The notes: generated from the sequence alone by a model not told the origin. Shown: positions 2,039 to 25,927, numbered from the stretch's first letter. The stretch: 40,091 nt of DNA from Acidimicrobiia bacterium (GCA_009838635.1 VXRE01000153.1:42153-82243), one strand, 5' to 3'. A program made the numbers and translations.

Positions 2039-4776
2039 AGGTCCACCATCACTTCCAGGAGGGTCGAAGCGTCTCTCACCGTCTCGAGTGTCCCGACCAG
2101 ACGGATCGCCTCGTCAACCTTGCTGCGGTTACCGCCCCCTGCCGAATCTAGCAACAGGGTCCGTCTGTCGGGGAGGTGGAGCGGGAGAACGGAGCGGTCT
2201 CCTTCGAGGCTCTCGGTGTGGCCCGAAGCCATGGTCACCGTGACCCGGGCGAACCATGGGTCCCTTCCCGGCTCGTACCGGAGAGCGACACCGTCCGCCG
2301 GCTCCGCGCCCTCCGGGGCCCCGTTGGCCCCGTGGTCCTCTTCGCGGGGACCGCCTGCCAACATCTGCGCAAGGGCGCGGCGCAGGGCTGCGGCTTGGGA
2401 TACTTGGTGCTCTGAGCCTCGGAGGCGGGTTCGGGCGACGTGGTCCCAGCGTCTGCGGGTCTCGGGCAGCAGCACTTCCACCTCAACCGGCTCCCCGGCA
2501 TCGCCGGCCAGCCTCGCGCCCAGCCGGGAGGCCAGCTCCACCGGGACAAGATGGTTGGGATCAAGGCCATGGCGGCTGACCACGGCCCGTTCCAGCCCGA
2601 ACCTGGTCCCCAGTCCTGACAGCGACCGATCCAGATCTGTCGGAACCGTCCCGAGCGTCGATCTGTACAACCCGAACTCTCCCTCGATCATGAGATCGGC
2701 CGCCGGGAATCCCGCCTCGGCGAGGATGGCGGCGTACACGCCGTTGCGTGCCAACTGCGCATTGACGAGCGCCTCTTCCTCGACGCCCTCGATCAATCCC
2801 ATCGTCAGGTGGCAGGCCTGCCCGATGGCATCCGCCGTCCGCTCCTCGTCGAGCCCGAGCAGGCGGGCCGCTGTGCAGGCCACGGCCACGGGACCGAACA
2901 CGCAGTCGGCCCGGCGGGCGGTCGCGGCGCCCCAAGCCCATGTTCCGGCGGACAGCGCCAGGCCGGCGTCGTACCCCACCGCGATCGCCACCAGGAACTC
3001 CTGCCCGGATACCGCCCGGTCCTCGCTCAGCCCTAGCGCCGCCGGAATGATCAACGCCCCCGGACGCATCCCTCCGGCCATGCTGTCCTGCCGGCCCCGC
3101 GTCTGCATGCTCAGCGAGTTGGCGAACACCGCGTCGAGCAGGCGGAGCGAAGGCTTCCGGCCGATGGCGGAATAGTCGCCCGGTGGCCTGCCCGGGCAGG
3201 CGCCTTTGGGCGGCCGGTCCGCCAATGCCAACCCGAGGTGGTGGACGAGCAGATCCTTGCCGCGCTCGAGCACCGCCGGAGGGAAGTCCTCGTACCTGGC
3301 TCCGCTCACGTAGGAGGCGATCCGCCGGGACGCGGTCGAGCCGGGTTCCCGATCGAGACCCGGAGAGATCGCCGGTGTCGTATCAGGTCGGTCGGCGAAC
3401 CGGTCGAGCACTGTCCACAGCTCGGAGGCATGGCGGGACTCCTCGAGCCGCTCCACCGAGGCCACGAAGCCCTCGATCGCAGACGGGGAGGCTGCGGGAA
3501 GGAGGTCGGTCAACCACTCCCGGTAGTCCATCGGCGGGGTCGGGGTCGCGTGATGACCCTCCCGCACGTGCTCGTGGCCGTCGGTGGTCACAACCGTGAG
3601 GCGGGCCGAGCGCAGGGGTAGCCCCTCCACGAAGTCCATTGATGTCCGGGCGAGCAGGTCCACGAAGCCCGCCGGCATGTCCTCGCGGTAACGGGCCGGT
3701 TTCAGCTTGCCGTCCCACAACCAGGCGGCCGCCAGGAATCGGGGAGAGGCGTAGCGGGTGATGTACCGGCGTTCACCGTCCCGGTAGCGGCGGAAGTTCC
3801 GGTCGAAGTCCTCCTCGCGGGGCCGCCGTTCCTCGGGGAGGGCGAGCCGGATCGAGGCCACGTCCTCCACGGTCACCCCCGTGCTGCGGATGAGGTTGTC
3901 CATCAGCTCCACGGGCACCACATTGAAGCCACTGCACGCGTAACGCTTGCGGAACGCGTGCGCGAGCCCGTAGTCGCTTCCCAACCCGTCCATGGCTGCG
4001 ACCACCTCTCCGGGAACGGCCCCGAGGTAGGTCTCGTACAGCCCGTACGGGCCGTCCAGAACGCTCGGAGTGGAACGGTGTCCGTCCGCGGCCAGCAAGG
4101 TCGCCATGACGCCGTTGCGGGTCACATGGGGATACAGGATGCCGGCGAAGGGAGTTCCCTCGATGAGGCCGACCGCGCCGTTGGCGGCCAGCCCCAGCGC
4201 GTGCGCGGATCTGCGCGGTCCGAGGCCCAGCAGGCGGGACGCCACCGCCGCCACACCGAGCGGACCCACCACGCAACCGGACCGGCGCGGCGTACTCACC
4301 CCCCAGGTCCAGCCACCGCGTGCGGTCGCGACCAGGACGTCGTAGCCGGCCACCACCGCGGCCAGAAAGTCCCGGCCGCTGACGGTCCTGGTTTCCGGCA
4401 ATGCCAGGGCCGTGGGGTATACCAGCACCCCCGGATGGGTGCCGCCGAGAGCCGCGTCGTCGAGCGCGTCCGCACCCATGAGGAGGGAGTTGGCGAAGAC
4501 CGCATCGAGCAGGCCGTACCGGCCGGGTGTTCCGAGAATGCGGTGCCGCCCTCCCTCACCGGAAATCCTACGAGCCACCGCGCGGGCCCGCCGGGGACGC
4601 GGGTAGTCCACGGCAGCGAGGGCCAGACCGACATGGTGGACGAGGTGGTCCTTGGCCAGCCCGACGATCTCCGATGGGATCGTCTCGAACGCGAGGCCGG
4701 AGACGTGTTCGGCCAGCCGGTGGATCAGGGGAGTGCGGTCCTCTTCATCCCGCGCATCGGCGGTCGCCATCGACAT
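2029..4776 (-). CDS. tandem-fused double MmgE/PrpD family protein (about 915 aa)
   Basis: Two consecutive MmgE/PrpD-like halves: KDHLVHHVGLAL...LLDAVFANSLLMGADALDD...THPGVLVYPTAL and KDLLVHHLGLAL...LLDAVFANSLSMQTRGRQD...MRPGALIIPAAL; start MSMATADARDE. Confidence 0.82.
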   Translation of the reverse strand: MSMATADARDEEDRTPLIHRLAEHVSGLAFETIPSEIVGLAKDHLVHHVGLALAAVDYPRPRRARAVARRISGEGGRHRILGTPGRYGLLDAVFANSLLMGADALDDAALGGTHPGVLVYPTALALPETRTVSGRDFLAAVVAGYDVLVATARGGWTWGVSTPRRSGCVVGPLGVAAVASRLLGLGPRRSAHALGLAANGAVGLIEGTPFAGILYPHVTRNGVMATLLAADGHRSTPSVLDGPYGLYETYLGAVPGEVVAAMDGLGSDYGLAHAFRKRYACSGFNVVPVELMDNLIRSTGVTVEDVASIRLALPEERRPREEDFDRNFRRYRDGERRYITRYASPRFLAAAWLWDGKLKPARYREDMPAGFVDLLARTSMDFVEGLPLRSARLTVVTTDGHEHVREGHHATPTPPMDYREWLTDLLPAASPSAIEGFVASVERLEESRHASELWTVLDRFADRPDTTPAISPGLDREPGSTASRRIASYVSGARYEDFPPAVLERGKDLLVHHLGLALADRPPKGACPGRPPGDYSAIGRKPSLRLLDAVFANSLSMQTRGRQDSMAGGMRPGALIIPAALGLSEDRAVSGQEFLVAIAVGYDAGLALSAGTWAWGAATARRADCVFGPVAVACTAARLLGLDEERTADAIGQACHLTMGLIEGVEEEALVNAQLARNGVYAAILAEAGFPAADLMIEGEFGLYRSTLGTVPTDLDRSLSGLGTRFGLERAVVSRHGLDPNHLVPVELASRLGARLAGDAGEPVEVEVLLPETRRRWDHVARTRLRGSEHQVSQAAALRRALAQMLAGGPREEDHGANGAPEGAEPADGVALRYEPGRDPWFARVTVTMASGHTESLEGDRSVLPLHLPDRRTLLLDSAGGGNRSKVDEAIRLVGTLETVRDASTLLEVMVDLCG

Positions 4777-4792
4777 CGGACTACGATATCGG
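4770..4792. promoter_or_regulatory. putative operator site S1: TCGACATCG-GACTA-CGATATCGG
   Basis: Member of the 8-site inverted-repeat family; divergent intergenic region, overlaps the start region of the PrpD fusion. Confidence 0.7.
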
Positions 4793-4827
4793 TTACCGAG
4801 ATCAGGTTCAAGGGAGACCAAACCCGC

Positions 4828-6174
4828 ATGACCGACAGCGGCCCGTCCATCAGCGAGCGGCTGGCTCGCTACATCCGCTCGCTGCGGTTCGAGGACCTTC
4901 CCACCGAGATCGTGGAGCGCGTCAAGGATCACCTCGTCCATCACGTCGCCCTAGGGCTCGAGGGCCGGAACAGCGAGTACGGGCATTACGCACGGCGGAC
5001 GGCGGCGCGGTTGAGCGAGGCCGGCGGGCGCTTCTCCGCCATCGGCGAGAGGCCGTCGCTCGAGTTGCTCGATGCGGTGTTTGTCAACTGCCTGTACATG
5101 CACCAGAGCGGGCAGGACGACTCGGAGTCGGGCGGCACCCATCCCGGCGTGCTCGTATATCCCACAGCTCTCAACCTGGCGCAGGACCGTACCGTGAGCG
5201 GCAGGGAACTCCTCACGGCCTGCGCCATCGGCTACGACGTGGCGATGGTCCTCAGCGCCGGAACCTGGGCCTGGACTGCTCCCGCGCCGCGGAGACCCAA
5301 TGCGATCTTCGGTCCGGTTGCGGTGGCCGCCACCTCCGCCCGGCTGCTGGGCCTATCCGAGTCACGAACGGTCAATGCGCTGGGCCTAGCCTGCCACGGC
5401 GCGCTGGGCCTGATCGAAGGCACCCGGTTCATCTGGGTGGTGTACCCGTGGGAGTGCCAGGCCGGGGTGTTCGCAGCAGTACTGGCCGAGTCGGGCTTCC
5501 CGGCCGCGCCGAGCATGATCGAAGGAGACTTCGGCCTCTACCAGACCCTCCTCCAGGAGATCCCGGCCGAGATCGACGAGAACCTCGCCACCCTGGGATC
5601 CCGTTTCCGCATCACAGAAGCCCGGGTCAAGCAATACCGGGCCAGCAACCTGAACGCCGGCATCCTCGACACCACCAAGCGGGTGAGCGAGACGATGGAC
5701 CTGAGGCCGGAGCATGTCGAGTCGATCCTCATCGAACTCCCCGAGAGCAGGCGCCTGCGAGAGAAGCGCATGGAGGAGAACTTCTCCAAGTACACGGATA
5801 TCGTCTCGCGGATCGGCTCCCTACCCTTCCTCATGGCCCGGCTGATCCAGGACCGCGAACTGGACCACCGGACGTACCTCGACCCCATCTCGGATGACTT
5901 GCAGTCCCTGCTCGATTCGATCACCCTGAGCTTTGTCGACGAGGCGGTTCCCAAGTACTACGCGAGGGTCACCATACGGACCAGCGCCGGAGCGGTCGAG
6001 ACATTCGAACACGGCCGCGACGGCGTGCGTTATCCGAAGGTGGACCGGGAGGCATGGATGGCCAAGTGCGTGGGAGACGATCCGCCCATCGATGTAGGGC
6101 GCTTCCTCCGACTTGTCGACGAACTGGAGACACTGCCCGATGCGTCCGTGCTGCTTGACGCCATCGAGCATTGA
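4828..6174 (+). CDS. MmgE/PrpD family protein
   Basis: MTDSGPSISERLARYIRSLRFEDLPTEIVERVKDHLVHHVALGLEG...LLDAVFVNCLYMHQSGQDDSESGGTHPGVLVYPTAL. Confidence 0.82.
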   Translation: MTDSGPSISERLARYIRSLRFEDLPTEIVERVKDHLVHHVALGLEGRNSEYGHYARRTAARLSEAGGRFSAIGERPSLELLDAVFVNCLYMHQSGQDDSESGGTHPGVLVYPTALNLAQDRTVSGRELLTACAIGYDVAMVLSAGTWAWTAPAPRRPNAIFGPVAVAATSARLLGLSESRTVNALGLACHGALGLIEGTRFIWVVYPWECQAGVFAAVLAESGFPAAPSMIEGDFGLYQTLLQEIPAEIDENLATLGSRFRITEARVKQYRASNLNAGILDTTKRVSETMDLRPEHVESILIELPESRRLREKRMEENFSKYTDIVSRIGSLPFLMARLIQDRELDHRTYLDPISDDLQSLLDSITLSFVDEAVPKYYARVTIRTSAGAVETFEHGRDGVRYPKVDREAWMAKCVGDDPPIDVGRFLRLVDELETLPDASVLLDAIEH

Positions 6175-6238
6175 TGAGGTGGCGCACGGGCGTGGGATGG
6201 TTCGCATGACTCGAACGGAGATCTGAAAGGAGTACCGG

Positions 6239-6664
6239 ATGGATCGACCGGAACTGTTCATCGTTCACTGGCTTCACGTGTTCCTGGCCATCTACTGGTT
6301 CGGGGCGATCCTGTTCTCGCGCGTGAGCCTCTTTCCTGCGCTGCGCAGGCTGGGGCCCGAGTCCCTCGAGGAGGTACGCGGCGCCATGAAGGCGGGACAC
6401 GGCACCAAGATCACCTACACCGCAGCGATTGGAACGGTCACACTCGGATGGATCCGGGGATTCATCGACGGAGGGCTGGACGATCTGGGGAGCCTCTACG
6501 GGCAGCTGTACCTGACCGCGGGAATCCTCGGAATTCTGATGGTGGTCTACCTGGTCGGCCCTCTCTACGACAGGCCGGTCCTGAACATCATGTACGTCTG
6601 GGCCTTCCCGGTCATGTTCACCATGATGGTCATGATGAGGTTCGCCGGACTCTTCGGATGGTGA
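6239..6664 (+). CDS. small 4-TM CopD/DUF2269-like membrane protein (copy 1)
   Basis: FIVHWLHVFLAIYWFGAILFSRVSLFPAL...MYVWAFPVMFTMMVMMRFAG; upstream SD-like GAAAGGAG. Confidence 0.65.
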   Translation: MDRPELFIVHWLHVFLAIYWFGAILFSRVSLFPALRRLGPESLEEVRGAMKAGHGTKITYTAAIGTVTLGWIRGFIDGGLDDLGSLYGQLYLTAGILGILMVVYLVGPLYDRPVLNIMYVWAFPVMFTMMVMMRFAGLFGW

Positions 6665-6677
6665 CCGGCGCTTCCCT

Positions 6678-7439
6678 GTGATGACGACGTATGCCCGGCA
6701 GGACTCGACGACCATGACGCAAGGCGGAAGGACCGTCTACGGTCTGGCGCTCGGCATCATCATGCTCGACACCAAGTTCCCCCGGCTCCGGGGCGACGTC
6801 GGGAACGCCCGGACCTGGCCCTTCCCCGTCTCCTACCGGATCGTCGAGGGCGCACTCCCCGAGCGGATGGCCCAGGCCGATCCCGACCCCGACCTGCTCT
6901 CTCCCTTCGTCGAAGCGGCCCGGGCGCTGGAAGCGGAGGGCGCGCGGGCGATATGCACCAGTTGCGGGTTTCTGGCCGTGAACCAGCCCGAACTTGCCGC
7001 CGCGGTGGAGATACCGGTCTTCTCGTCCCCGCTCCTCCAGGTTCCGATGGCGGCCACTTCCGCGGGAGGCAGGAAGGTCGTGATCCTGACGGCCCGGACC
7101 GTGCTCACCGAAGCGCATTACCGGGGCGCCGGCTGGTCATCGGAGGACGTGGCGGTGGTGCAGATGGCGCCGCCCGAGGACAGCCACTTCTATGCCACCT
7201 TCGTGGGCAACTCCCCCGAGGCGGACATCGATCTTCTCGAGCGGGACGTGGCCGACCTGGCCCGGAGGGTGGTGGCGGAACATCCGGACGCCGGCGCCAT
7301 CGTCATGGAGTGCGCCAACTTCCCGCCCTTCGGCCAGATGGTGAGGACGATCACGGGACTGCCGGTGTTCGACCTGTACACGATGGGGATGCACGCCTAC
7401 CTGGTGGGGTCCGGCACCGACTTCCCGCGAACTCTCTAG
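6678..7439 (+). CDS. aspartate/glutamate racemase-fold protein (copy 1)
   Basis: GGRTVYGLALGIIMLDTKFPRLRGDVGNARTWPFPV; paired Cys motifs CTSCGFL and MECANFPPF; true start may be the Met at about 6714. Confidence 0.7.
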   Translation: MMTTYARQDSTTMTQGGRTVYGLALGIIMLDTKFPRLRGDVGNARTWPFPVSYRIVEGALPERMAQADPDPDLLSPFVEAARALEAEGARAICTSCGFLAVNQPELAAAVEIPVFSSPLLQVPMAATSAGGRKVVILTARTVLTEAHYRGAGWSSEDVAVVQMAPPEDSHFYATFVGNSPEADIDLLERDVADLARRVVAEHPDAGAIVMECANFPPFGQMVRTITGLPVFDLYTMGMHAYLVGSGTDFPRTL

Positions 7440-7443
7440 CCGG

Positions 7444-8043
7444 GTGAATACACCTACCGAGAGACCGGACGGACCCGCGCCGCTACGTCTCGGCATCGGT
7501 GCCATCGGCGTGATCTTCTTCCGGATGGGGCTGGTGGCGTTCGGAGGGCTCCTCCTCCTGCTCGTTCTGATCGAGCGCGAGCTGGTGGACAGGCGGCCCG
7601 CGCTCACCAAGCGGCAGATCACCGAGGCCGTGACCTACACCCGCTTGCTCCCGGGCTCCGGGGGTCCTCTCGTGGTCTCCTACCTCGGCTACGTGCTGCG
7701 GGGAGTGGGCGGATCGGGGGTCGCCACCCTGATGTACCTCCTCCCCGGGATACTCGTGATGACCGGGCTGGCAGTGGGCTTCGTGGCGCTCTCCACCCTT
7801 CCGCTGCTGGCCCCCGCCATCGAGGGCCTCCTGGCAGCCGTGGTAGGCATCCAGTCGGTGTATCTCTACCGCTTCGCCCGGAAGGCGATTGTCGATGCGG
7901 TCACCGCCACCATCCTCGTAGCGGGACTGGGCGCGACGTTCCTCCTGGGTGTCAGCGCGCCCCTCATCGTGCTGCTGGCCGGGGTGGTGGGGGTGTTCCT
8001 TTTCACGAAGGGGCTCGGATCCGAGGTTGCGGATGCCGGCTGA
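7444..8043 (+). CDS. chromate transporter (ChrA/CHR) half, N-terminal-type domain
   Basis: IFFRMGLVAFGGLLLLLVLIERELVDRRPALTKRQITEAVTYTRLLPGSGGPLVVSYLGYVLRG; hydrophobic; GTG start. Confidence 0.75.
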   Translation: MNTPTERPDGPAPLRLGIGAIGVIFFRMGLVAFGGLLLLLVLIERELVDRRPALTKRQITEAVTYTRLLPGSGGPLVVSYLGYVLRGVGGSGVATLMYLLPGILVMTGLAVGFVALSTLPLLAPAIEGLLAAVVGIQSVYLYRFARKAIVDAVTATILVAGLGATFLLGVSAPLIVLLAGVVGVFLFTKGLGSEVADAG

Positions 8044-8596
8044 ACTCTTCGACCTGTTCTGGCAGTTCATGCTGTTCAGCCTTCTCGCCTTCGGTGGAGG
8101 GGGGACGGTCCTGGGGCTGGTCGATCGGGTAGCCGTGGCGGACAAGGGATGGATCACGCCGGCCGAGTTCTCGGCGGCCGTCGGCTTTACCTTCATCACG
8201 CCGGGGCCGATCCTCGTGCTGGCGCCTTTCGTCGGCTACCTGGTGGCCGGTGCGGCAGGCGCAGTGGTGGCCACCCTTGGCGTGTTCCTGGCCCCTTGGG
8301 CACTGGCCATGGGATCGGCCCACCGGCTACGCCGCTACCTCCAGCATCCCCGTCTCAGGGCCTTCGGCAAGGGCGCCGGGCCGGCCATCGTCGGCCTCTT
8401 CAGCCTCGCCGTGCTCACCATCGCCAGGTCCAGCCTCTCCAACCTGGCGCTGGTTGCGGTGGCGCTGATCGCCGGCACGCTGATGGCCCGAACGAAACTC
8501 CACCCCATAATCATCCTGGCCGGAGGGGCGTTGGCGGGCCTGGTACTTGGTATCCCCGCCCTTGAGGGCGCGCTACCCGAGATCCGGATTCCGTAA
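8033..8596 (+). CDS. chromate transporter (ChrA/CHR) half, C-terminal-type domain
   Basis: LFWQFMLFSLLAFGGGGTVLGLVDRVAVADKGWITPAEFSAAVGFTFITPGPILVLAPFVGYLV; overlaps the preceding ChrA half by 11 nt. Confidence 0.75.
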   Translation: MPAELFDLFWQFMLFSLLAFGGGGTVLGLVDRVAVADKGWITPAEFSAAVGFTFITPGPILVLAPFVGYLVAGAAGAVVATLGVFLAPWALAMGSAHRLRRYLQHPRLRAFGKGAGPAIVGLFSLAVLTIARSSLSNLALVAVALIAGTLMARTKLHPIIILAGGALAGLVLGIPALEGALPEIRIP

Positions 8597-8638: not shown

Positions 8639-9904
8639 CTACCTGCGTTCGAGGATGCGGAAACGGGTAGGCCGGAAGGGTGCCGGATCCAGGGAGGGTT
8701 CCTCGTTCGAGACCATCTGCCCGATGATCTCGCCGGTGATGGCCGCCAGGGTGAACCCGATGTGGCCGTGGCCGTAGGCAAGGTAGACATTGGTGTGGCG
8801 GGGCGCCCGGCCGATGACCGGAAGGGAGTCGGGGTGCGACGGCCGGTAGCTCATCCAACTCTCCGCGCCGTGGGTCCGCAACTCGGGGAACACCAGCCTG
8901 GTGGCGTCGACGAGGCGGTCCGCCCGCCGGAAGTCGGGTGGCGCTTCCAGGCCGGCCAACTCGTCCGTCCCGGCCAGGCGGAGGCCGCCGGGAAGCGGGG
9001 TCATGGCGAAGTGGTGGTCCATCGAGATGATGGGGAAGGGGAGGTCCACACCCGGATCAGGCAGGTCGACCCCGTAGCCGCGCTCGGTGTCCAGGGGAGT
9101 GGTGAAACCGAGCATCCTGGTGAGGTGCTTGGACCAGGCGCCGGCCGCGATCACCACCAGGTCGGCCGCGACCTTCTCCTCAGCGGTCTCCACCACCGTT
9201 ACCCGATCGTCCGACTGCGCGAACCCGCTGACTTCGGCGGACAGGCGGCGGCCGCCCTCCGAGACCAAGAGATCGGTCAGGGCCGCGCAGAGCAGCCGGG
9301 GGTCGGCCCACGGGCCTCTGGGAATGTAGACACCGTGCCGGAAGCGGCCCTCCAAGATCGGGGCCAACCCGGCAACACCCTCCGCATCCAGGATCCTCAT
9401 GTCGATGCCGCGCCTCCGCCTGGTCTCGATCGCGAAGGCCGCCTTGGCGAACACTGCGTCGGTGCCGTAACCGAGCAGGTGCCCGCCGTCGATCACAACC
9501 CCCTCGGAAGCGCCGGCCGGCAGCACGTCTTCCCAGGCCCTGAGCGCCTGCTTGACCAGTCCGGCGATCGCGACGGAAGCCCGCTCGACCTGAGCGGGCC
9601 GTCCGGACGCGAGAAAGCGCAACAGCCAGGGCAGCATCCGCGGCAGGTAGCGCCACCGGATGGCCAGGGGTGAGTGGGGATCGGTCAACATCCTGGGCAC
9701 CGAACGGATGACCCCCGGAGTGGAGGTGGGAAGGCAGTTCCCGACCGAGAACAGCCCGGCGTTGTGACCCGATGCGCCGTTGCCGGGGGCACTGCGGTCC
9801 ACGACCGTCACCTCGTAGCCACGCCGGAGCAGGTGCATCGCGCAGCAGAGGCCGACGGTTCCTCCGCCTACCACGACAGCGCGCGCCTCATGCGCGGACG
9901 ACAC
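8639..9904 (-). CDS. FAD-dependent oxidoreductase (DAO/DadA-like amino-acid oxidase family)
   Basis: ARAVVVGGGTVGLCCAMHLLRRGYEVTVVDRSAPGNGASGHNAGLFS; C-term GHGHIGFTLAAITGEIIGQM; GTG start at 9904 with GGAGG just upstream. Confidence 0.82.
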   Translation of the reverse strand: MSSAHEARAVVVGGGTVGLCCAMHLLRRGYEVTVVDRSAPGNGASGHNAGLFSVGNCLPTSTPGVIRSVPRMLTDPHSPLAIRWRYLPRMLPWLLRFLASGRPAQVERASVAIAGLVKQALRAWEDVLPAGASEGVVIDGGHLLGYGTDAVFAKAAFAIETRRRRGIDMRILDAEGVAGLAPILEGRFRHGVYIPRGPWADPRLLCAALTDLLVSEGGRRLSAEVSGFAQSDDRVTVVETAEEKVAADLVVIAAGAWSKHLTRMLGFTTPLDTERGYGVDLPDPGVDLPFPIISMDHHFAMTPLPGGLRLAGTDELAGLEAPPDFRRADRLVDATRLVFPELRTHGAESWMSYRPSHPDSLPVIGRAPRHTNVYLAYGHGHIGFTLAAITGEIIGQMVSNEEPSLDPAPFRPTRFRILERR

Positions 9905-9914: not shown

Positions 9915-9937
9915 CCGATATTGGGATGCGATATCGA
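9915..9937. promoter_or_regulatory. putative operator site S2: CCGATATTG-GGATG-CGATATCGA
   Basis: Inverted-repeat family member in the divergent spacer between FAD oxidoreductase and CCG protein 1. Confidence 0.75.
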
Positions 9938-12407: not shown

Positions 12408-12446
12408 CAGTCCCTTCCTTCTCCTCGTCCCTCTGCAATCTAGCGT

Positions 12447-14692: not shown

Positions 14693-14719
14693 CGGTTTCC
14701 TCTGACCATGCATCGCGTG

Positions 14720-14742
14720 CCAATATCGGGCTACGATACCAG
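14720..14742. promoter_or_regulatory. putative operator site S3: CCAATATCG-GGCTA-CGATACCAG
   Basis: Inverted-repeat family member between ChrA operon and padR. Confidence 0.75.
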
Positions 14743-16210: not shown

Positions 16211-16343
16211 ACCGGTGATACGAGCCCCGGGGATGACGGGCGGCCCGTTGATGTTGGTCCCGATCCGGGGATCTAGAGCCGGCATGATCAGGGAATTCCC
16301 GGGCACGCGCTCGATTTGCAAGCCTTCCTACCGATTCCGGCTA

Positions 16344-16366
16344 CCGATATCGGGCTACGATACCGG
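16344..16366. promoter_or_regulatory. putative operator site S4: CCGATATCG-GGCTA-CGATACCGG
   Basis: Best consensus member; 40 bp upstream of the CopD-like copy 2 start; additional CCGATTCCGG half-site just 5-prime. Confidence 0.78.
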
Positions 16367-16406: not shown

Positions 16407-16820
16407 ATGGCTTGGGACGTGTTCATAGTTCATTGGCTTCATGTGGCCTTCGGAATCTTCTGGGCGGGCTCGATCGCCTTCACCCGGGTCACCCTGTTCC
16501 CCGCCCTCGCCACCCTCCCGAAGGAGCAGGCGGAGGCGGCTCGCGGTTCGCTATTGACCGCCAAGGCCCGCCAGATCACGTTGATCACTGCGGGCGGGAC
16601 GGTCGTCACGGGAATCCTGCGCGGGCTGATGACCGGCGTGCTCGACCAACTCAACACCTCGTACGGGTGGATCTTCATCCTGTCGGGGGTACTGGGAATA
16701 CTCATGTTCGTATTCCTCCTCAACCGCGTGCCCACGCCCGCCTTCCTGAGGACTGTCTACGTTGCCGCCTTCCCGGTGATCTTCACCATGATGGTCCTCA
16801 TGCGCTTCGGCGGCTTCTAG
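16407..16820 (+). CDS. small 4-TM CopD/DUF2269-like membrane protein (copy 2)
   Basis: FIVHWLHVAFGIFWAGSIAFTRVTLFPAL...VYVAAFPVIFTMMVLMRFGGF, clear paralog of 6239-6664; GGGGAGG before ATG 16407. Confidence 0.68.
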   Translation: MAWDVFIVHWLHVAFGIFWAGSIAFTRVTLFPALATLPKEQAEAARGSLLTAKARQITLITAGGTVVTGILRGLMTGVLDQLNTSYGWIFILSGVLGILMFVFLLNRVPTPAFLRTVYVAAFPVIFTMMVLMRFGGF

Positions 16821-16842
16821 TCGTCTTGAGACCACTAGGCCG
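16811..16842. terminator. possible bidirectional terminator hairpin between convergent genes
   Basis: CGGC-tt-CTAGT ... ACTAG-g-CCG inverted repeat at the convergent gene ends. Confidence 0.35.
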
Positions 16843-18076
16843 CTGGTGGCCGGTCGGGCGTTTCCTCCTCCTCCCGGCCGGCCACCAGGCACAGGCCGAG
16901 GGCGACGGCGGGCGCCGCCAGGAAGCCGATGGACAGAGGGAGCACCGTACCGTCGTACGCCCGATCGATGAGCGAGCCGATCAGCGCTCCACCCCCGGTA
17001 GAGACAGCCCCGATGATCGAACCCGCTGTCCCGGCCTGGTCAGCCATCGGGTCCAGGGCGAGGCTGTTCAGGTTGGTGATGACCAGGCCATGCATGGCTG
17101 CGATCACCGAAAGGCACACCAGGAAGAACGCTAGGGCAGGCGTGCCACCCGCCCCCCAGGTCCCGATCGCCAACACGGCGGCGGTCCCCAGGTAGATCAC
17201 GAGGGTCCCCACCACCACTCGCCGGGTTGTCAGGGTCTCGACCAGCTTGGCGTTGGCGATCATCGCAACCGCCATCATCGCCGTTATGCCGCCGTAGATC
17301 CACGGGAACAGATGACCCCGGCCGTATGCGTCGGAGAAGACGAGTTCGGAGGTCGCTATGTAGGAGAAGAAGGCGCCGAAGCTGAGCGTCATGGCCAAGG
17401 TGTAAGAGACGGCCTTGCGGTTACGCAGGACCCGGAATACGGAGGGACCCAGGCGGAAGGCCGACGACCCGGCCGATGTCGTTGCCGGCCGCGTCTCTCG
17501 CAGGCGGGTGGTCCACAGCGCGACCACGGCCGCGAGCCCCAGGGCCAGCCCGTAGACACCTCGCCAGGAAGCAATACCCACGACGGTGGCGCCCGCTACC
17601 GGAGCGAGGATGGGAACGATGGTGAAGACTGCGAACACCGACGACATGATCCTCGCCATACGGTCACCGTCGTAGAGGTCGCGCACTATCGCCAGCGCCA
17701 CGATGCGGGGGCCGGCGGCCCCCACGCCCCATAGTGCCTGGGTTGCCAGGAGCAGGGATACCGAGCCGACGGCTACGGCGAGCACCGATCCGGCGGCGCC
17801 GGCCGCGTAGACCGAGAAACCCAGCCGGAGTGCCGGTTTCCTGCCGAATCTGTCGGACAGGGGCCCGTAGACCAGCGTTCCGACGGACAGGCCGAGGATG
17901 TAGGCGGTGATCGCCCGGGCGAGGCGGTTCGAGTCTTCGGCCAGTCCGAGGACCTGGCGCATCTCTTCGAACGCGGGCAGGATGAGGCCCACCCCGAGCG
18001 CTGAGAGGGCCATGGCGAAGGACAGGAGCAGAATCAGCTCCGCCTCGCGCATCCGTGCGGGTCGGGTGGCGGTCAC
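16835..18076 (-). CDS. Bcr/CflA-type MFS drug-resistance-like transporter
   Basis: YILGLSVGTLVYGPLSDRFGRKPALRLGFSVYAAGAAGSVLA...LWGVGAAGPRIVALAIVRDLYDGDRMARIMSSVFAVFTIVPILAPVAGA. Confidence 0.88.
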   Translation of the reverse strand: MTATRPARMREAELILLLSFAMALSALGVGLILPAFEEMRQVLGLAEDSNRLARAITAYILGLSVGTLVYGPLSDRFGRKPALRLGFSVYAAGAAGSVLAVAVGSVSLLLATQALWGVGAAGPRIVALAIVRDLYDGDRMARIMSSVFAVFTIVPILAPVAGATVVGIASWRGVYGLALGLAAVVALWTTRLRETRPATTSAGSSAFRLGPSVFRVLRNRKAVSYTLAMTLSFGAFFSYIATSELVFSDAYGRGHLFPWIYGGITAMMAVAMIANAKLVETLTTRRVVVGTLVIYLGTAAVLAIGTWGAGGTPALAFFLVCLSVIAAMHGLVITNLNSLALDPMADQAGTAGSIIGAVSTGGGALIGSLIDRAYDGTVLPLSIGFLAAPAVALGLCLVAGREEEETPDRPPAA

Positions 18077-18144: not shown

Positions 18145-18167
18145 GCGAGATCGGATACCGATATCGG
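18145..18167. promoter_or_regulatory. putative operator site S5: GCGAGATCG-GATAC-CGATATCGG
   Basis: Inverted-repeat family member in MFS/CCG3 divergent spacer; followed by AT-rich GATAATATAAAG. Confidence 0.65.
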
Positions 18168-18204: not shown

Positions 18205-19302
18205 GTGATCGACAAGACGAAGTTCGACGTAAAGGGCTACTACACGGCCATGGCCGAGAGCAAGTCGCTCCTAATCGCCCGCGACGACCTCAAGTGGACC
18301 GAAAGATGGGTCGAGCCCGACCGTCCCTACGACGCCCTGCTCGCCTACGGGTGCGCGGTCCAGCACACCCCGCATCTCATGCAGGAGGCCGCCAACGTCC
18401 TCGACTTGCTGGGCGTCGACTACTTCGCGGTTACCGGCCGCCAGTTCTGTTGCGGCCGTCCGTTCGAGAAGATGGGCAAGGACGGTGCGGCCGCCGACCG
18501 CATATCCGACAAGTCCTACCGGCGCTTCATGTCGTACCGTCCGAAGGTGGCGGTCCAGTGGTGCGGCGCGTGCATGCGCCAGTACCTCGACACCATCAGC
18601 TCGCAGCAGGATCCTCCGTTCGCGGTGGTGCATATCACCAAGTTCCTGGCCGATCTGCTCCAAGCGCGGGGCGACGATGTCCCGTGGGTGCGAGACGTGA
18701 GAACGCGGGTGCTCTTGGAGGCCCACCACGACCATGCGCAGGCCGACATCGACACCGCCGCGATCCTGCGGATCTTCGAGATGGTCCCGGGTGTCGAATT
18801 CGCCGGTTTCGTCGAGCCTCCGTCCGCCGGAACACCGTGCGACCTCGAAGGCCCCAAGGCCGTGGGCGTCCTCAACAAAGCCGACACCGAGACCTTCCAG
18901 GGCGCCATCAAGGAGCTGGAGGACCAGTTGGAGGCCGCCCGGGCCGACACCCTCGTCACCCCCTACCACAAGTGCCAGATGGAATGGTCGAAGCTCTCCA
19001 CCAAGAAGATGGCCATCCGCGAGTGGATATCGCTGGTTGCCGAGGCGATGGGGGTGGGGGTGCAGGACCGTTACACGATGTACTGGCACCTGGGCGACCC
19101 CGAGAAGATCGCCGAGGAGGCCCGGCCGCAGTGGGAAACCTGGGGTTGGACCGCGGAGCAAGCCATCGAGGCCGCTCGCCGGCATTTCGTTCCCGAGTAC
19201 GCAATAGACGTGCACCATTGCGACTGCGGAGGCAGCGGCTGCGGCAGCGAGGGCGCTGAGCTGCTCTGGCCGGGCCTGATCGACGTGGCCGCCCTGGTCT
19301 GA
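18205..19302 (+). CDS. CCG-domain (HdrB-like) Fe-S cluster protein, copy 3
   Basis: YGCAVQHTPHLM...RQFCCGRPFEKMGKDG...WCGACM; C-terminal CDCGGSGCGS; GTG start. Confidence 0.75.
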   Translation: MIDKTKFDVKGYYTAMAESKSLLIARDDLKWTERWVEPDRPYDALLAYGCAVQHTPHLMQEAANVLDLLGVDYFAVTGRQFCCGRPFEKMGKDGAAADRISDKSYRRFMSYRPKVAVQWCGACMRQYLDTISSQQDPPFAVVHITKFLADLLQARGDDVPWVRDVRTRVLLEAHHDHAQADIDTAAILRIFEMVPGVEFAGFVEPPSAGTPCDLEGPKAVGVLNKADTETFQGAIKELEDQLEAARADTLVTPYHKCQMEWSKLSTKKMAIREWISLVAEAMGVGVQDRYTMYWHLGDPEKIAEEARPQWETWGWTAEQAIEAARRHFVPEYAIDVHHCDCGGSGCGSEGAELLWPGLIDVAALV

Positions 19303-19329: not shown

Positions 19330-21039
19330 CTAGTCGGCGCCTTCTGTCGACGTACCACCATCGGGACGGTCCAGAACCACGTCGACAACGTAGGGTGTCG
19401 AGGCTTCCATTCCCCGTTTCATAGCCGGTCCCAGGTCTCGCGGCGTGTCCACCCTCTCCGCCGGAATCCCCAACGAAGCGGCCAGCGCCACGAAGTCGAC
19501 GTCCGGGCCTTGGATGTCGAGGCCGGGCAGATCCGACCCGGCTTCGCTCCAGGGTCCGCCCATGCGGTTCACTATCAGTTCGAGAACCCGGTATCCACCA
19601 TTGTTCAGGATTACGACGAGCACCGGCAAGTTCCGGTTCGCCAGGTTCCATAGCGCGTGCGGGTAGTAGAGGAACGACCCGTCTCCCACCGCCACCACGA
19701 CCTTCCGATCGGTCCGTGCCACCTGTAAGCCTGCCGCGGCCCCGACCGAGTACCCGAGGGATATCCCGTTGGCGCCGAAGTAGGAGAGCGGGTCGGGAAA
19801 CTCGAGGGTGTTCACGAACGAGGGCCGGTTCGAAATCGTCTCGTCCACGAGGATCCCGCCGGGCGGCATGTTGTCACGGATGGCCGCGGCGACCCCGACG
19901 GCGGTCGGCCTGCCGGTGGCAGCCTCTTCCTGGGTCTTTCGGTCCCAATCCGAGCGCCGCCTCGTTGCCTCATCGTGCAGCCCTCGGGCCCTACGGGCAG
20001 CGGCTGCCCGATCGAGCGGAGTTTCCTCGAGAGCAGTGCGCAGGCGCCGCAGGTTCGCTCCCACGTCGCCGAGCAGGGCTGCCGAGGCGGGGTGGTTCTT
20101 ACCGATCTCGCTCGGGCTGTCGTCCAGTACCACCGTCTTCACATGAAACGGGATCAAGGGGCCACCCTCGTCGTAACGGGAGACCGGCGCCGCCGAGGTA
20201 ACCCCGCACAGGAGTGCCACATCGGCTCGGGCGAAGTTGGCTCGCATGCCGGCCGCCAGGTTGGGCATGGGCCCTAGATACAGGGGGTGCCGGGAGGGGA
20301 AGTTCCAGAGTGTTGCATAACCCTCTGTGTACACACGGGCGCCGAGAGCCTCGGCAATGGCGACCAGTTCATCCCAGCCGTGGGCGAGGCCCACTCCGTC
20401 GCCGGCCACGATCATCGGCTGCTCGGCGGATGCCAGCACCCGGACGGCTACCTGGATTGCCTGGTCGCTCGCAATCGAACGTGTCGGCTCGGTGACCCGC
20501 GCCGGCCCGAAGCCGTCATGCTTCTCGAGCAGAACGTCCGGCGGTATCGATACGAAGACCGGCGCGAACGGGGGGGTGGCAAGTTCCTTGAAGGCCTTGT
20601 GCATGACCATGGGAAGCTCTTCGAGGAAGCGAACGTCGTACGACCATTTGGTGAACTGCCCGACCATGGAGAGAAGGTCCGAGCTGAGTATCGGGTCCTG
20701 GACCCGTAAGCCCGTGTGGTGCTGGCCTGCGGTCACCAGGAGCGGGACCCGGGCCCGGTGGGCGTTGTAGAGGTTGCCGAGGCCGTGGGCGACGCCAGGC
20801 GTAACATGGAGGTTCACGACCCCGACCTTGCCCGATGCCCGTGCGTAGCCGGTGGCTTGGGCCACCGCAACGTCCTCGTGGAGGGACAGGACATACTCGA
20901 TGGACGGGTAGTCGTTGCACCCGTCGACGAGGGGGAGCTCGGTGGTGCCCGGATTACCGAAGATGTAATGAACATCGTGGCTGACCAGGTATTCGAAGAA
21001 GATGTCCCGTCCGAGGGGCGTGAGCCCGGAACCCGTCAC
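19330..21039 (-). CDS. thiamine-diphosphate enzyme, benzoylformate-decarboxylase-like
   Basis: VHYIFGNPGTTELPLVDG...LSLHEDVAVAQATGYARASGKVGVVNLHVTPGVAHGLGNLYNAHRARVPLLVTAGQ; C-term VVAVGDGSFLYYPHALWNLANRNLPVLVVILNNGGY. Confidence 0.88.
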   Translation of the reverse strand: MTGSGLTPLGRDIFFEYLVSHDVHYIFGNPGTTELPLVDGCNDYPSIEYVLSLHEDVAVAQATGYARASGKVGVVNLHVTPGVAHGLGNLYNAHRARVPLLVTAGQHHTGLRVQDPILSSDLLSMVGQFTKWSYDVRFLEELPMVMHKAFKELATPPFAPVFVSIPPDVLLEKHDGFGPARVTEPTRSIASDQAIQVAVRVLASAEQPMIVAGDGVGLAHGWDELVAIAEALGARVYTEGYATLWNFPSRHPLYLGPMPNLAAGMRANFARADVALLCGVTSAAPVSRYDEGGPLIPFHVKTVVLDDSPSEIGKNHPASAALLGDVGANLRRLRTALEETPLDRAAAARRARGLHDEATRRRSDWDRKTQEEAATGRPTAVGVAAAIRDNMPPGGILVDETISNRPSFVNTLEFPDPLSYFGANGISLGYSVGAAAGLQVARTDRKVVVAVGDGSFLYYPHALWNLANRNLPVLVVILNNGGYRVLELIVNRMGGPWSEAGSDLPGLDIQGPDVDFVALAASLGIPAERVDTPRDLGPAMKRGMEASTPYVVDVVLDRPDGGTSTEGAD

Positions 21040-21066
21040 CGGAGAAAGTCTCCTTGAACTCGCGAA

Positions 21067-21089
21067 CCGATATCGGGATACGTTACCGA
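21067..21089. promoter_or_regulatory. putative operator site S6: CCGATATCG-GGATA-CGTTACCGA
   Basis: Inverted-repeat family member in the ThDP enzyme/acyl-CoA dehydrogenase divergent spacer. Confidence 0.72.
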
Positions 21090-21145: not shown

Positions 21146-22336
21146 GTGGACATGGAATTACCGGCTCGACAGAGCCCTCTCGCCCTGACCGAAGAGCAAC
21201 GCCAACTCCGCTCCCTGGCAGCTGACCTGGCGCGTGATGTGTACGCGCCCCGCGCCCAGGAATGGGACGCGGCCGGCATCCACCTCCCCCGCGAAGAGCG
21301 GAAGCGCCTCGGCGAACTCGGACTCCTCGGGATCACCCTTCCCGAGGAGTACGGCGGGATGGGCCGGCCTTTGATCGACGCCCTCATCGTCATCGAAGAG
21401 TTGGCCAAGGCAACCCAGGTGGCCGCCTGGCCGGTCTTCGAAGCCACCACCGGTCCCGCCCGCGTGATAGATATGTTCGGAACTGCCGAGCAGAAGCGCC
21501 GCTGGCTTCCGGCGGTTTGCAGCGGCGAGAGCACCGTAGCGGTCTCGATCTCCGAGCCGGATGCCGGCTCGGCCGCCACCGACATGTCCACCCGGGCGCG
21601 GGTGGACGGCGACGAGATCGTGATCGACGGCATGAAGCGATGGTGCTCGGGGGCCGGATTCTCGGAGCAGTATCTGGTCTACGTGCGCCTCGGGGAGGAA
21701 CTTGGCTCGCGGGGGATCGGCGCTGTGGTCGTCGACGGGGACACCCCCGGTCTTGAGTTCGGACCGCAGGAACGCCTGATGGGCTTCCGCGGCATCGGTT
21801 CGGCCGACATGTTCTTCAACGAGGTGCGGATTCCCCGTGAGAACCTGCTGGTGGGCAAAGGCGGCTTCTCGCAGCTGTTCACCGCGTTCTCCATCGAGCG
21901 GCTCGGCAACGCCACGATGGCCCTCGCTATCGGCCAGACAGCCCTGGACCGCTCCGCCCGCTACGTACAGGAACGTCGCCAGTTCGGACGCCCGATAGCA
22001 GAGTTCCAGCTGGTTCAGGCAACCATCGCCGACATGGTCATGCAGGTGGAGGCGGCGCGCCTGCTCATTCATAGGGCTGCTATCTCGGCCGGGCGGGGAT
22101 CACCACCGGCCCTGGAGGCGTCGGTGGCCAAGTGCTTCGCCAACGAGATGGCCAAGCGGGTCTCGGATCTAGGCATCCAGCTGCACGGCGGCTACGGCTA
22201 CTCCGTGGAGTTCGACATGGAGCGGCTCCACCGCGACGCTCACGGCTGGGCGCTGGCAGGGGGTACGACCAACATCCAGCGGGTGCGGATCGCCTCGGAA
22301 TACCTGGGACGACGCTTCGGCCAACGCAGGAATTGA
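21146..22336 (+). CDS. acyl-CoA dehydrogenase family protein
   Basis: LGLLGITLPEEYGGMGRPLIDALIVIEELAK...AVSISEPDAGSAATDMSTRA...QERRQFGRPIAEFQLVQATIADM...QLHGGYGYSVEFDMERLHRDAH. Confidence 0.93.
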   Translation: MDMELPARQSPLALTEEQRQLRSLAADLARDVYAPRAQEWDAAGIHLPREERKRLGELGLLGITLPEEYGGMGRPLIDALIVIEELAKATQVAAWPVFEATTGPARVIDMFGTAEQKRRWLPAVCSGESTVAVSISEPDAGSAATDMSTRARVDGDEIVIDGMKRWCSGAGFSEQYLVYVRLGEELGSRGIGAVVVDGDTPGLEFGPQERLMGFRGIGSADMFFNEVRIPRENLLVGKGGFSQLFTAFSIERLGNATMALAIGQTALDRSARYVQERRQFGRPIAEFQLVQATIADMVMQVEAARLLIHRAAISAGRGSPPALEASVAKCFANEMAKRVSDLGIQLHGGYGYSVEFDMERLHRDAHGWALAGGTTNIQRVRIASEYLGRRFGQRRN

Positions 22337-22360
22337 CTCCTATAGAAGAGTAGCTCCGGT

Positions 22361-22452: not shown

Positions 22453-23655
22453 TCAGGGCCTACCCGTCGGGGGGTGGAGGAGAGCGCCCCCGGCGGCTTC
22501 GACGCGGTCCATGGCCTCATCTAGGCGGGCATCGGGAACGGTTAGGGAGAACCTCACGTAGCCCTCGCCGTACCGCCCGTAGCCGATCCCCGGGATGGCA
22601 ACCACCGCGGTCTCTTCCAGCAGTCGGGTGAAGAACCTCATACTGCTGGTCCCGTCGGGTAGGGGTGCCCACACGTAGAAGGTCCCTTGGGGCGGCTCCA
22701 CGGCCAGGCCTATCCGGCGGAGGGCCGTTACGACCCGGTCGCGGCGGCGCCGGTATGTGTCCATCTGGGTGCTCAGTATGTGGTCGGGGGTCTCGAGGGC
22801 GGCGATCGATGCCTTCTGGACTGCGCCGAAGAGTCCCGCGTCGGTGTTGAGTTTCATGCTCCGCACCGCGCCGACGACGTCGGGGTTCCCCACCACCATC
22901 CCGCTACGCCAGCCGGTCATGTTGTATGACTTGGACAGGCTGTTGAACTCGACTGCGACGTCCTTCGCGCCGTCGACCGTGAGGACGCTGGCGGCCGGCT
23001 CGCCACCGAACGTGATGTCGGCGTAGGGGTTGTCGCTCACCAGGATCGTGTTGGTCCGCTGAGCGAAGTCGACCGCCATTTCGTAGAACTCGACCGGCGC
23101 CACCACCGCGGTCGGATTGTTCGGATAGGACATCCAGATGGCCCTTGCCCGGGCCGCGACGTCTCGGGGGATCGAGTCGAAGTCGATCAGGAACCCGTTC
23201 TCGGCAAGTAGCGGAACCTTCCGTACCTCGGCGCCCGCCAGGATGGCGGCGGCTTCATAGGCGGGAAAGGCCGGATCGGGAACCAATACCAGGTCACCCG
23301 GGTCGAGGGCGCCCAAGCAGAAGTGGAGGTTGCCCTCCTTGCTGCCCATCAACGGCAGCACCTCGGTTTCGGGATCGACATGAACATCGAACCGGCGCTT
23401 GTACCAGGCGGAGATGGCGGCGCGGAACTCCGGCAAGCCGCGCGCCAGGCCGAGGGGATACTGGTGGTTCACCGGATCCTGCGCCGCGTCACGGAGTGCA
23501 GCCACCACGTGGGACGGGGTCGGGGTGTCGGGGTCGCCCTTCCCCATGTCTATCACGTCCCGTCCGGCGCGGCGGGCCTCCGCCACAAGGCGGTGTATCT
23601 CGACGTAGACATACGGGGGTAGGGCGTCGAGGCGCTGAGATCTGGCCAGGTCCAT
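22453..23655 (-). CDS. class I/II PLP-dependent aminotransferase
   Basis: DVIDMGKGDPDTPTP...YPNNPTAVVAPVEFYEMAVDFAQRTNTILVSDNPYADITF...EFNSLSKSYNMTGWRSGMVVGN; likely start at MDLARSQRLDALPPYVY. Confidence 0.92.
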   Translation of the reverse strand: MDLARSQRLDALPPYVYVEIHRLVAEARRAGRDVIDMGKGDPDTPTPSHVVAALRDAAQDPVNHQYPLGLARGLPEFRAAISAWYKRRFDVHVDPETEVLPLMGSKEGNLHFCLGALDPGDLVLVPDPAFPAYEAAAILAGAEVRKVPLLAENGFLIDFDSIPRDVAARARAIWMSYPNNPTAVVAPVEFYEMAVDFAQRTNTILVSDNPYADITFGGEPAASVLTVDGAKDVAVEFNSLSKSYNMTGWRSGMVVGNPDVVGAVRSMKLNTDAGLFGAVQKASIAALETPDHILSTQMDTYRRRRDRVVTALRRIGLAVEPPQGTFYVWAPLPDGTSSMRFFTRLLEETAVVAIPGIGYGRYGEGYVRFSLTVPDARLDEAMDRVEAAGGALLHPPTGRP

Positions 23656-23689
23656 CGGTATGTCCCGGGGAGGCGGTCCTCGAGCGAGG

Positions 23690-23712
23690 CTAGCATCGAG
23701 ACCCGATATCGA
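23690..23712. promoter_or_regulatory. putative (weaker) operator site S7: CTAGCATCG-AGACC-CGATATCGA
   Basis: One strong CGATATCGA half plus degenerate partner, in the aminotransferase/PrpD divergent spacer. Confidence 0.5.
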
Positions 23713-23725
23713 CATGTGAGATCAG

Positions 23726-25153
23726 GTGGTAGGGGCGATGGGGACCGGCGCGCCGGGCCGAGGCCAACCGGAGAGAAGCGGCCGCGACTTCACACCGGTG
23801 CCCTACCCCACCCAGACCGAGCGGCTCGCCGCCCATGTGGTCGGGCTCCGCTACGAGGCCATTCCCCGGCCGGCCGTGGACAAGATGAAGGAGCACATCG
23901 TTCATCACCTCGGGCTCGCCCTGCGGGGTCTGAGCACTCAGGAGGGCCGGCAGGCGGTCAGGATCGCCGAGTCGTTCGGCCACGAGGGGTCTGCCACGAT
24001 CATCGGTAGGCGAGACCGGACGGCTCCGATGGAGGCCGCCTTCGCCAACACGACCCTGATGCGCTCCGACTTCCTCGACGACGTGCTGTTCCCCGCCGGT
24101 GTTCACGCCGCCCTCGTGACCCTCCCCCCGGCGCTCGCGGTCGCAGAGGAACGGCGCCGATCCGGCAAGGAGTTGCTCACCGCCCTCATCGCGGCCTACG
24201 ACGTGATCGGCAAGCTGGGAAGTCCCGCCGGGATGGCCTCGGCCAGGGCGCCGAGAAGGCCGACCATCCCCTTCGGGCCGTTCGGGGGCGCCGCGGCCGT
24301 GGCCCGCCTGCTCGGACTGTCAGAACACCGGACCGCGCACGCGCTCGGCTACGCGGCGCATTCCGGCATGGGTCTGAGCGAGGGCGATTTCGTGACCCAC
24401 TACTACGGCCTAGTGGCCCGCAACGGGCTGATGGCGGCTGTGGCCGCCGACCATGGCGGCCAAGCGGCTTTGGCTGTGATGGAGGGGCGGTTCGGGTTCT
24501 GGAACACGTTCTTCACGGGAGTACCGGCCTCCCTGGACGATTCGCTCGACACCCTCGGCACGGACTTCGAGATCATGAACGCCACCACCAAGCGTTACCC
24601 CGGTACGGGGCTGAACATCGTGCCGATCGAATTGGCCACCAGGCTGGTCCACGACCACGCCTTGGCTGCCGCGAACACCCGCTCCGTGACGCTGTTCCTA
24701 CCCGTGGAGCGGAAGCACTTCGTCACCGGTCACATGCATCCACCCTTCCAGAGCGAGGCGGCGGCCCGCAGCTCGTCGGTGCTGGCCATCGCCACCGTCC
24801 TCGCGACCGGACGGTTGGACCCCGACCTGGTCATGGATTACACCCGCCCTGGTCTGTTAGAGCTGTGCGACCGGATCAGCGTGGTGCTCGAGGAGGGCCA
24901 TCCCATCCGCTACGCGCGGGTCGAAATCGACACCAGTGACGGACGGCGTCTGGTAGCAGAGGGACACGACCATGCCTTCGATCCGGCCGATTGGCTCGAC
25001 TGGCTGTCGGTGGGCGGAACCGATGTCCTTGGATGGGATGCGCTCACCGGCCTGGTGACGGCGATGGAGCGCCTCGAGGACATCGACAACGTGGCCGATC
25101 TCACCGCCTTGCTCAGGCCACGCTACCGAGACCCGGTTCCCACCACGGACTGA
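23726..25153 (+). CDS. MmgE/PrpD family protein
   Basis: RLAAHVVGLRYEAIPRPAVDKMKEHIVHHLGLALRG...MEAAFANTTLMRSDFLDDVLFPAGVHAALVTLPPALAVAEE. Confidence 0.8.
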   Translation: MVGAMGTGAPGRGQPERSGRDFTPVPYPTQTERLAAHVVGLRYEAIPRPAVDKMKEHIVHHLGLALRGLSTQEGRQAVRIAESFGHEGSATIIGRRDRTAPMEAAFANTTLMRSDFLDDVLFPAGVHAALVTLPPALAVAEERRRSGKELLTALIAAYDVIGKLGSPAGMASARAPRRPTIPFGPFGGAAAVARLLGLSEHRTAHALGYAAHSGMGLSEGDFVTHYYGLVARNGLMAAVAADHGGQAALAVMEGRFGFWNTFFTGVPASLDDSLDTLGTDFEIMNATTKRYPGTGLNIVPIELATRLVHDHALAAANTRSVTLFLPVERKHFVTGHMHPPFQSEAAARSSSVLAIATVLATGRLDPDLVMDYTRPGLLELCDRISVVLEEGHPIRYARVEIDTSDGRRLVAEGHDHAFDPADWLDWLSVGGTDVLGWDALTGLVTAMERLEDIDNVADLTALLRPRYRDPVPTTD

Positions 25154-25848
25154 TGGACCGAGGTAACCAGGGAGTAAAGGTCGAAGATCGGCCGTCCGGT
25201 TGCTTGCCTCATGGCCTTTCCCCAAGGGACGAAGTTGGTGCACTCGAGCACGACTGCGCCCACTTCCGGATGCTCGCCCACCTGGCGGCGTGCCAACGTC
25301 ACCAGTTCGGCCTCCAGGACGCCGGCATCGGCAACCACGGCTTGGTCGATGTATACCTGCGGGAAGACCGCATCATCCGGCATCGAACTGACCACGATCT
25401 CGTACTCCTCGGGCGACCATCCCATCCCGAGGAAGTGGCGATCCGTCAAATGCGGGCGTTCGGTGAGGATCCCCACCTTGCGACCCGGCCCCACCAGCCG
25501 GGCCGCCAAGGGCACCTGGAGTAACGCCGAGGTGAGCATGGGTACGCCGACTTGGGCCTGCATCTCTTGTTGGAAGACCGACAAGAACCCGCAACTGGTC
25601 GTGATCGCCCGCACACCCATCGCCTCCAACTCCTGAGCCCCCTCGATGAATGGAGCCAGGAGGGTCGGATCGGGTTCCGAGCCCATGATCCGGCTGGTGT
25701 CCGCGCCCTGCACGACCTTGTAAAGCACCGGGAACGGCCAGGTCAGGGCGTTCCCTACGTCACCCGGCGGTCGGGGACAGGTGGTGTCGAGCATGAGGAT
25801 CCCGATGTCATGCCCGTAGACGGTGCGGCCGCCCTTCACGATCGCCAT
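25123..25848 (-). CDS. aspartate/glutamate racemase-fold protein (copy 2)
   Basis: GGRTVYGHDIGILMLDTTCPRPPGDVGNALTWPFPVLYKVV; TTSCGFLSVFQ and LECTNFVPWG Cys motifs. Confidence 0.7.
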   Translation of the reverse strand: MAIVKGGRTVYGHDIGILMLDTTCPRPPGDVGNALTWPFPVLYKVVQGADTSRIMGSEPDPTLLAPFIEGAQELEAMGVRAITTSCGFLSVFQQEMQAQVGVPMLTSALLQVPLAARLVGPGRKVGILTERPHLTDRHFLGMGWSPEEYEIVVSSMPDDAVFPQVYIDQAVVADAGVLEAELVTLARRQVGEHPEVGAVVLECTNFVPWGKAMRQATGRPIFDLYSLVTSVHQSVVGTGSR

Positions 25849-25904
25849 CGTCTACCTCCGGTCACCGGTCCGGCCCCTCCGATTCGAGAGCCCGAGCCTA
25901 TCAA

Positions 25905-25927
25905 CCAATTACGGATCCCGATATCAT
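25905..25927. promoter_or_regulatory. putative operator site S8: CCAATTACG-GATCC-CGATATCAT
   Basis: Inverted-repeat family member in the racemase/aconitase-X divergent spacer; a shifted register (CCGATATCA-TGATC-CGAGTTCGA) also possible. Confidence 0.55.

Follow-up and report, generated by a model that had tools for sequence, protein, structure and literature searches.

A putative PadR operator repeated across the promoters of a candidate catabolic island in an Acidimicrobiia bacterium

We analyzed a 40,091-nucleotide stretch of DNA, hereafter the window, from an Acidimicrobiia bacterium (GCA_009838635.1, VXRE01000153.1:42153-82243), in which the promoters of a putative catabolic gene island carry copies of one inverted repeat, TATCG-N5-CGATA. 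Contig C78 (82,243 bp), of which the window is the right end, belongs to a draft genome of 2.9 Mb. These sites are very likely the operators of one dedicated regulon under a PadR-family protein encoded within the cluster, a reading that we draw from sequence comparisons because the sites are restricted to the island, are conserved among relatives, occur at the promoters of distant PadR homologs, and co-occur with padR. The island extends from approximately position 26131 of C78 to 31604 of the window, about 47 kb; by our own count it comprises about 42 genes, forming about 21 transcription units, with a site at every operon. An earlier note on the window had proposed one dedicated regulator for about 25 genes; a single regulator is supported, but the regulon reaches 16 kb beyond the left end of the window.

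Number and distribution of the sites

All eight dyads described in the earlier note (S1-S8) are present in the window at the coordinates it gave, and four further sites lie to its left, at positions 28426, 34828, 35315, and 39705 of C78, so that the family of eight is real but has 12 members in total. The window sites are given below with their weight-matrix scores, the percentage of the 23-bp core kept in a relative of another genus (G010), and their location between genes on the minus (-) and plus (+) strands.

S1, 4770..4805: operator of three units, 30.4 and 21.5 bits in overlapping registers, core 96% kept; between the PrpD/opine-dehydrogenase operon (-) and the PrpD-racemase-ChrA operon (+)
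S2, 9915..9937: operator of two units, 29.1 bits, core 96% kept; between the FAD oxidoreductase (-) and a CCG-domain protein (+)
S3, 14707..14742: operator with a weak left third unit, 28.3 bits, core 100% kept; between the chrA operon (-) and padR (+), an autoregulatory site
S4, 16331..16366: operator of three units, 31.0 and 16.2 bits, core 87% kept; upstream of a gene for a 137-amino-acid protein (+)
S5, 18145..18167: operator of two units, 25.9 bits, core 91% kept; between the MFS (major facilitator superfamily) transporter (-) and a CCG-domain protein (+)
S6, 21054..21089: operator of three units, 30.1 and 15.3 bits, core 87% kept; between the thiamine-pyrophosphate enzyme (-) and acyl-CoA dehydrogenase (+)
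S7, 23690..23725: weaker operator, 22.1 bits, core 96% kept; between the aminotransferase (-) and PrpD (+)
S8, 25905..25940: weaker operator of three units, 24.0 and 15.0 bits, core 87% kept; between an Asp/Glu racemase-like gene (-) and the AcnX-racemase-Ldh operon (+)

We scanned all of C78 for pairs of 9-bp halves separated by 0 to 20 bp. A spacing of 5 alone was enriched, with 18 places at four or fewer mismatches, compared with 0.3 expected in first-order Markov-shuffled DNA and between 0 and 5 for each of the remaining spacings. A weight matrix built from the 12 sites scored each of them at 22-33 bits; we note that these sites are the training data, and that independent support comes from the conservation and homolog tests described below. 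Twenty Markov replicas of C78 contained no match of 20 bits or more, versus 12 real sites at 22 bits or more.

Sites were confined to the cluster that encodes PadR, with one weak exception. The two-unit pattern with up to two mismatches had 15 matches genome-wide, 14 of them on C78, which makes up 2.8% of the genome, and the reversed pattern, used as a control, had none. A genome-wide search with the 12-site profile, the kind of scan that the earlier note had suggested as a refutation test, returned 13 distinct places: the 12 island sites and a weak match on contig C70, with no spread in other DNA. Likewise, the claim that comparable sites cease after 31.6 kb held, since the matrix scan found no match above 10 bits in the window past that point; the last match of at least 10 bits beyond S8 (position 28368, 12.2 bits) falls within coding sequence.

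Within the window, seven sites lie in divergent promoter regions and one upstream of a single gene, as first described, and by our own count across all 12 sites the numbers are nine in divergent spacers and three at single promoters. Distances from site to start codon range from 19 to 158 bp and are mostly below 70 bp. Conserved -10 boxes were not found beside the sites; TATAAT-like hexamers occur here and there at three of them, and we claim no promoter map. S7 and S8 have the lowest scores among the window sites, in agreement with their description as weaker; their register, which had been considered uncertain, is right because the cores are 96% and 87% kept in G010.

Operator architecture

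Most sites have more than the two parts of a simple dyad of about 23 bp. At least seven of the 12 sites contain a third unit at a 13-bp period, matching at least six of 10 bases against a local background mean of 2.6. The inner halves are the best conserved among the 12 home sites. A consensus derived from 25 autoregulatory sites of PadR homologs has three elements, ATATCG-N5-CGATATCG-N5-CGATAT, that is, a half-site, a palindrome, and a half-site at a 13-bp period. Only the inner halves of the outer elements are conserved in this consensus, and the center is a full palindrome; because the side of the third element was picked by score, its conservation is somewhat inflated. We also considered whether the sites share a single orientation, which would point to a repeat or recombination array, and rejected this, as leave-one-out scores were similar or higher in the reversed direction for several sites.

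Separately, one genome (G320; locus L098, G320:C16:141316) contains a three-unit CGATATCGG-type array scoring 26.5 bits, and no close PadR homolog is listed there.

PadR as the probable regulator

The regulator of the 12 sites is very probably the PadR protein encoded between the chrA operon and an oxidoreductase gene, judging from its homologs and their promoters.

14844..15221, plus strand: padR, a 125-amino-acid PadR-family winged-helix protein and the proposed regulator of the 12 sites (PF03551, E 3.9e-18)

The kind of regulator is already known, as the protein passes the curated cut-off of PF03551 (65.6 bits versus 27), and a search of solved structures returned mostly PadR-family entries, the best being Rv3488 (5zhc, E 1.6e-20). 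Its best NCBIfam family is NF053635, the Rv3488 type (91.2 bits, E 3.8e-26), but the score is below the equivalog cut-off of 140 bits, which we interpret as a relative of Rv3488 rather than an equivalog. Among the island genes, padR is the sole transcription factor recognized by family searches (Pfam), and its own promoter carries operator S3.

Among 396 genomes of the same class, a two-unit match with no more than one mismatch was present in 19, and 12 encoded a PadR homolog. In G069 and G145, both distant genomes, the two-unit match adjoins the PadR gene. The pattern search and the PadR-homolog search were each made without the result of the other, so their agreement is an independent convergence. 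The 13-bp-period motif was present at the promoter of padR or its operon in six of seven distant homologs from the class.

Applied across the phylum, the Rv3488-type family model added 30 loci to this comparison; these are the best-scoring homologs rather than a random sample, and a few of them belong to one genus. The resulting test included 36 usable loci at 40-58% identity and a matrix from home-genome sites only. Matches of at least 12 bits occurred within 600 bp upstream of 24 of the 36 distant PadR homologs and in none of the equal downstream stretches, and at 20 bits or more the counts were 20 of 36 upstream and none downstream (Wilcoxon p 2e-9). At two more homolog loci, chrA comes before padR and the site lies upstream of that chrA gene. 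The suggestion of PadR as a candidate regulator is thus supported by an independent, phylum-wide test.

In three distant genomes (loci L106, L107, and L109), the operator lies ahead of a gene that is situated upstream of padR and is, by eye, possibly glyoxalase-like. From these loci, the gene content of the regulon varies for this type of PadR.

Conservation among relatives

The island, with all of its sites, is present in three relatives, two of the same genus (G001 and G004, approximately 95% DNA identity) and one of another genus (G010, approximately 80%), which is the conservation in orthologous clusters whose absence had been named as a refutation of the regulon. Compared with G010, the 23-bp cores were identical at 255 of 276 positions (92.4%), versus 638 of 1139 (56%) for the rest of the spacers, and the core exceeded the rest of its spacer at each of the 12 sites. 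Within the family, 10-14 matches per genome were found only in the home genome (G000) and these three relatives, and this PadR only in the same four and in G013. Other family genomes lacking the island mostly had no match, the exceptions being G008, G013, and G014, the last with one weak match. G013 has a shortened cluster with genes for a cupin, an M20 peptidase, a dehydrogenase complex, an FAD oxidoreductase, ChrA, and PadR, in which two sites are kept, S3 among them.

Proposed mechanism and origin

A PadR dimer would most likely recognize the inverted repeat TATCG-N5-CGATA. The full operator may then be two inverted repeats with the central CGATATCG in common, which would seat two dimers next to each other, their centers 13 bp apart. 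When bound in a divergent spacer, PadR would shut off both promoters there, also in the case of its own promoter and that of chrA, and a pathway intermediate or substrate would release it, switching on the transcription units of the island together. We infer direct binding, the dimer stoichiometry, repression rather than activation, and ligand release; repression is favored because the sites are near start codons and most described relatives are repressors.

Of 37 distant loci, 13 have a ChrA homolog next to PadR, as in the home island, and padR-chrA appears to be an ancestral module. The likely origin is a padR-chrA pair of long standing and under autoregulation; the operator of this pair would later have been placed ahead of all island promoters. 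On balance, we lean toward the broader proposal that the three-element array is the ancestral site of Rv3488-like PadR proteins phylum-wide, bound by two dimers that share the central palindrome, and that the padR-chrA module expanded here into a master switch for the whole island.

Evidence against regulation by PadR and alternative explanations

Several observations weigh against the proposal that PadR represses the island through these sites. About one third of the distant PadR homologs tested are without a clear upstream site. The operator also differs from the commonly quoted PadR box, ATGT-N8-ACAT, as its consensus is TATCG-N5-CGATA in arrays; however, operators vary within the PadR family, AphA being an example, so a non-classical box does not exclude membership. 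In G013, padR (L105, L113; G013:C66:63508-63880) reads in two frames, yet two sites remain, a pattern that could reflect a recent pseudogene or frameshift, or an assembly error. Finally, G008 lacks PadR but retains a single well-conserved site of 28.8 bits; the site is in an island remnant (L080, G008:C63:74001-94000), between a dehydrogenase complex and ChrA. This last case would fit a transcription factor encoded outside the cluster, with PadR merely one of its targets, and the family searches for regulators covered the island genes. We consider such a factor quite improbable, given that the motif tracks distant PadR homologs over many families, upstream of 24 of 36 and downstream of none, and that in the home genome it occurs only around the cluster.

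PadR could also bind the sites and act as an activator, or activate some promoters and repress others. AphA, a PadR-family protein, was first identified as an activator, yet it can repress as well (PMC6855506), and the variable distances from site to start codon would be compatible with either role. We nevertheless regard activation as unlikely: most sites are 20-70 bp from start codons, within or downstream of any core promoter, a single site serves two divergent promoters, and LmrR and the cited Listeria PadR proteins are repressors. The least probable explanation, to which we assign almost no weight, is that the sites are a repeat family, a DNA element, mobile or structural, that plays no part in transcription. 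Near-identical sequence in successive spacers and the internally repetitive units would suit a repeat, but the 23-bp core alone is conserved while its flanks diverge, there is no spread beyond the island, the positions are promoter spacers beside start codons, and the same motif is found at unrelated PadR loci. On the core-limited conservation and confinement to promoters, we rejected this reading.

Island genes and predicted pathway

The transcription units served by S1-S8, as assigned by Pfam unless noted, are as follows.

327..4700, minus: S1 leftward operon, PrpD-family protein (true start uncertain), octopine dehydrogenase-like protein, and an unknown gene
4828..8596, plus: S1 rightward operon, PrpD, an unknown 141-amino-acid protein, an Asp/Glu racemase-like protein, and two ChrA half-proteins
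8639..9880, minus: S2 leftward target, FAD-dependent oxidoreductase (DAO), with its true start at about 9880 or lower
9989..11131, plus: S2 rightward target, cysteine-rich (CCG) domain protein
11187..13499, minus: S3 leftward operon, its downstream portion, encoding a CCG-domain protein and an FhuF-like protein
13445..14713, minus: ChrA (chromate-transporter family, PF02417), divergent from padR
15284..16210, plus: luciferase-like F420-type oxidoreductase downstream of padR (Pfam and NCBIfam TIGR03564)
16407..16820, plus: S4 target, 137 amino acids, no Pfam match
16835..18076, minus: S5 leftward target, Bcr/CflA-like MFS transporter
18205..19302, plus: S5 rightward target, CCG-domain protein
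19330..21039, minus: S6 leftward target, thiamine-pyrophosphate enzyme
21152..22336, plus: S6 rightward target, acyl-CoA dehydrogenase
22453..23655, minus: S7 leftward target, class I/II aminotransferase
23738..25153, plus: S7 rightward target, MmgE/PrpD
25123..25848, minus: S8 leftward target, Asp/Glu racemase-like protein
25991..31604, plus: S8 rightward operon, AcnX, Asp/Glu racemase-like protein, and three Ldh_2 dehydrogenases

The whole island encodes four MmgE/PrpD proteins, AcnX, three Ldh_2 proteins, Asp/Glu racemase-like proteins, and an octopine-dehydrogenase-like protein, as well as a 2-oxoacid dehydrogenase complex and an oligopeptide-type ATP-binding cassette transporter with its binding protein. 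This predicted gene content suggests that the pathway breaks down an amino- or imino-acid-like compound. The three Ldh_2-family genes are in a row in one operon (28097-31604), probably a local triplication. At 2029-4944, the longest open reading frame of the MmgE/PrpD gene is 971 amino acids, about twice the normal PrpD length, with two PrpD-domain stretches, and is possibly a fusion or tandem protein. Three CCG proteins (9989-11131, 11187-12407, and 18205-19302) have separate operators and no obvious partner subunits.

Comparison with known PadR systems and significance

The small Rv3488-type PadR proteins (NF053635; 5zhc, 5zhv, 5zi8, 7wh4) include the nearest solved structure by sequence, although the island PadR scores under the cut-off for that family. 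We found no description of an Rv3488 operator in the open literature. AphA of Vibrio cholerae binds as a symmetric dimer to the inverted repeat ATGCAA-N4-TTGCAT, whose near-palindromic half gives the look of a direct repeat as well, and can bind cooperatively to two adjacent sites (PMC6855506). The operator described here is likewise a short inverted repeat of near-palindromic halves, but AphA differs in half-site sequence and spacing, and it regulates quorum sensing globally rather than a specific pathway. LmrR of Lactococcus lactis, in the PadR-2 subfamily, is an autoregulated repressor of an adjacent transporter operon, and more than one dimer has been proposed to occupy its own promoter (PMC4534193). 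LmrR has two target promoters, compared with the transcription units of an entire island, and its site is the standard PadR motif rather than TATCG-N5-CGATA. A link between PadR and chrA also appears in a paper on Bacillus cereus SJ1 (PMC2936356). Here, the adjoining padR and chrA, shared by the home island and distant loci, differ in being part of a 47-kb catabolic island in which the other promoters have the same operator.

No earlier description of this operator was found in the open literature searched, a scope that leaves aside subscription papers, including those on Rv3488. Searches for GATATCG and CGATATCG motifs likewise returned no operator description, the strongest text match being cloning primers. 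We regard this as an unusually large PadR regulon specific to one pathway, whose operator occurs phylum-wide and had not been named before. The PadR regulators compared here each control one or a few promoters, whereas the island PadR appears to hold about 21 transcription units. An operator found across the phylum allows target prediction for many uncharacterized Rv3488-like PadR proteins. It also delimits an uncharacterized catabolic pathway, marking the genes that belong together in uncultured bacteria for which genetics is not available.

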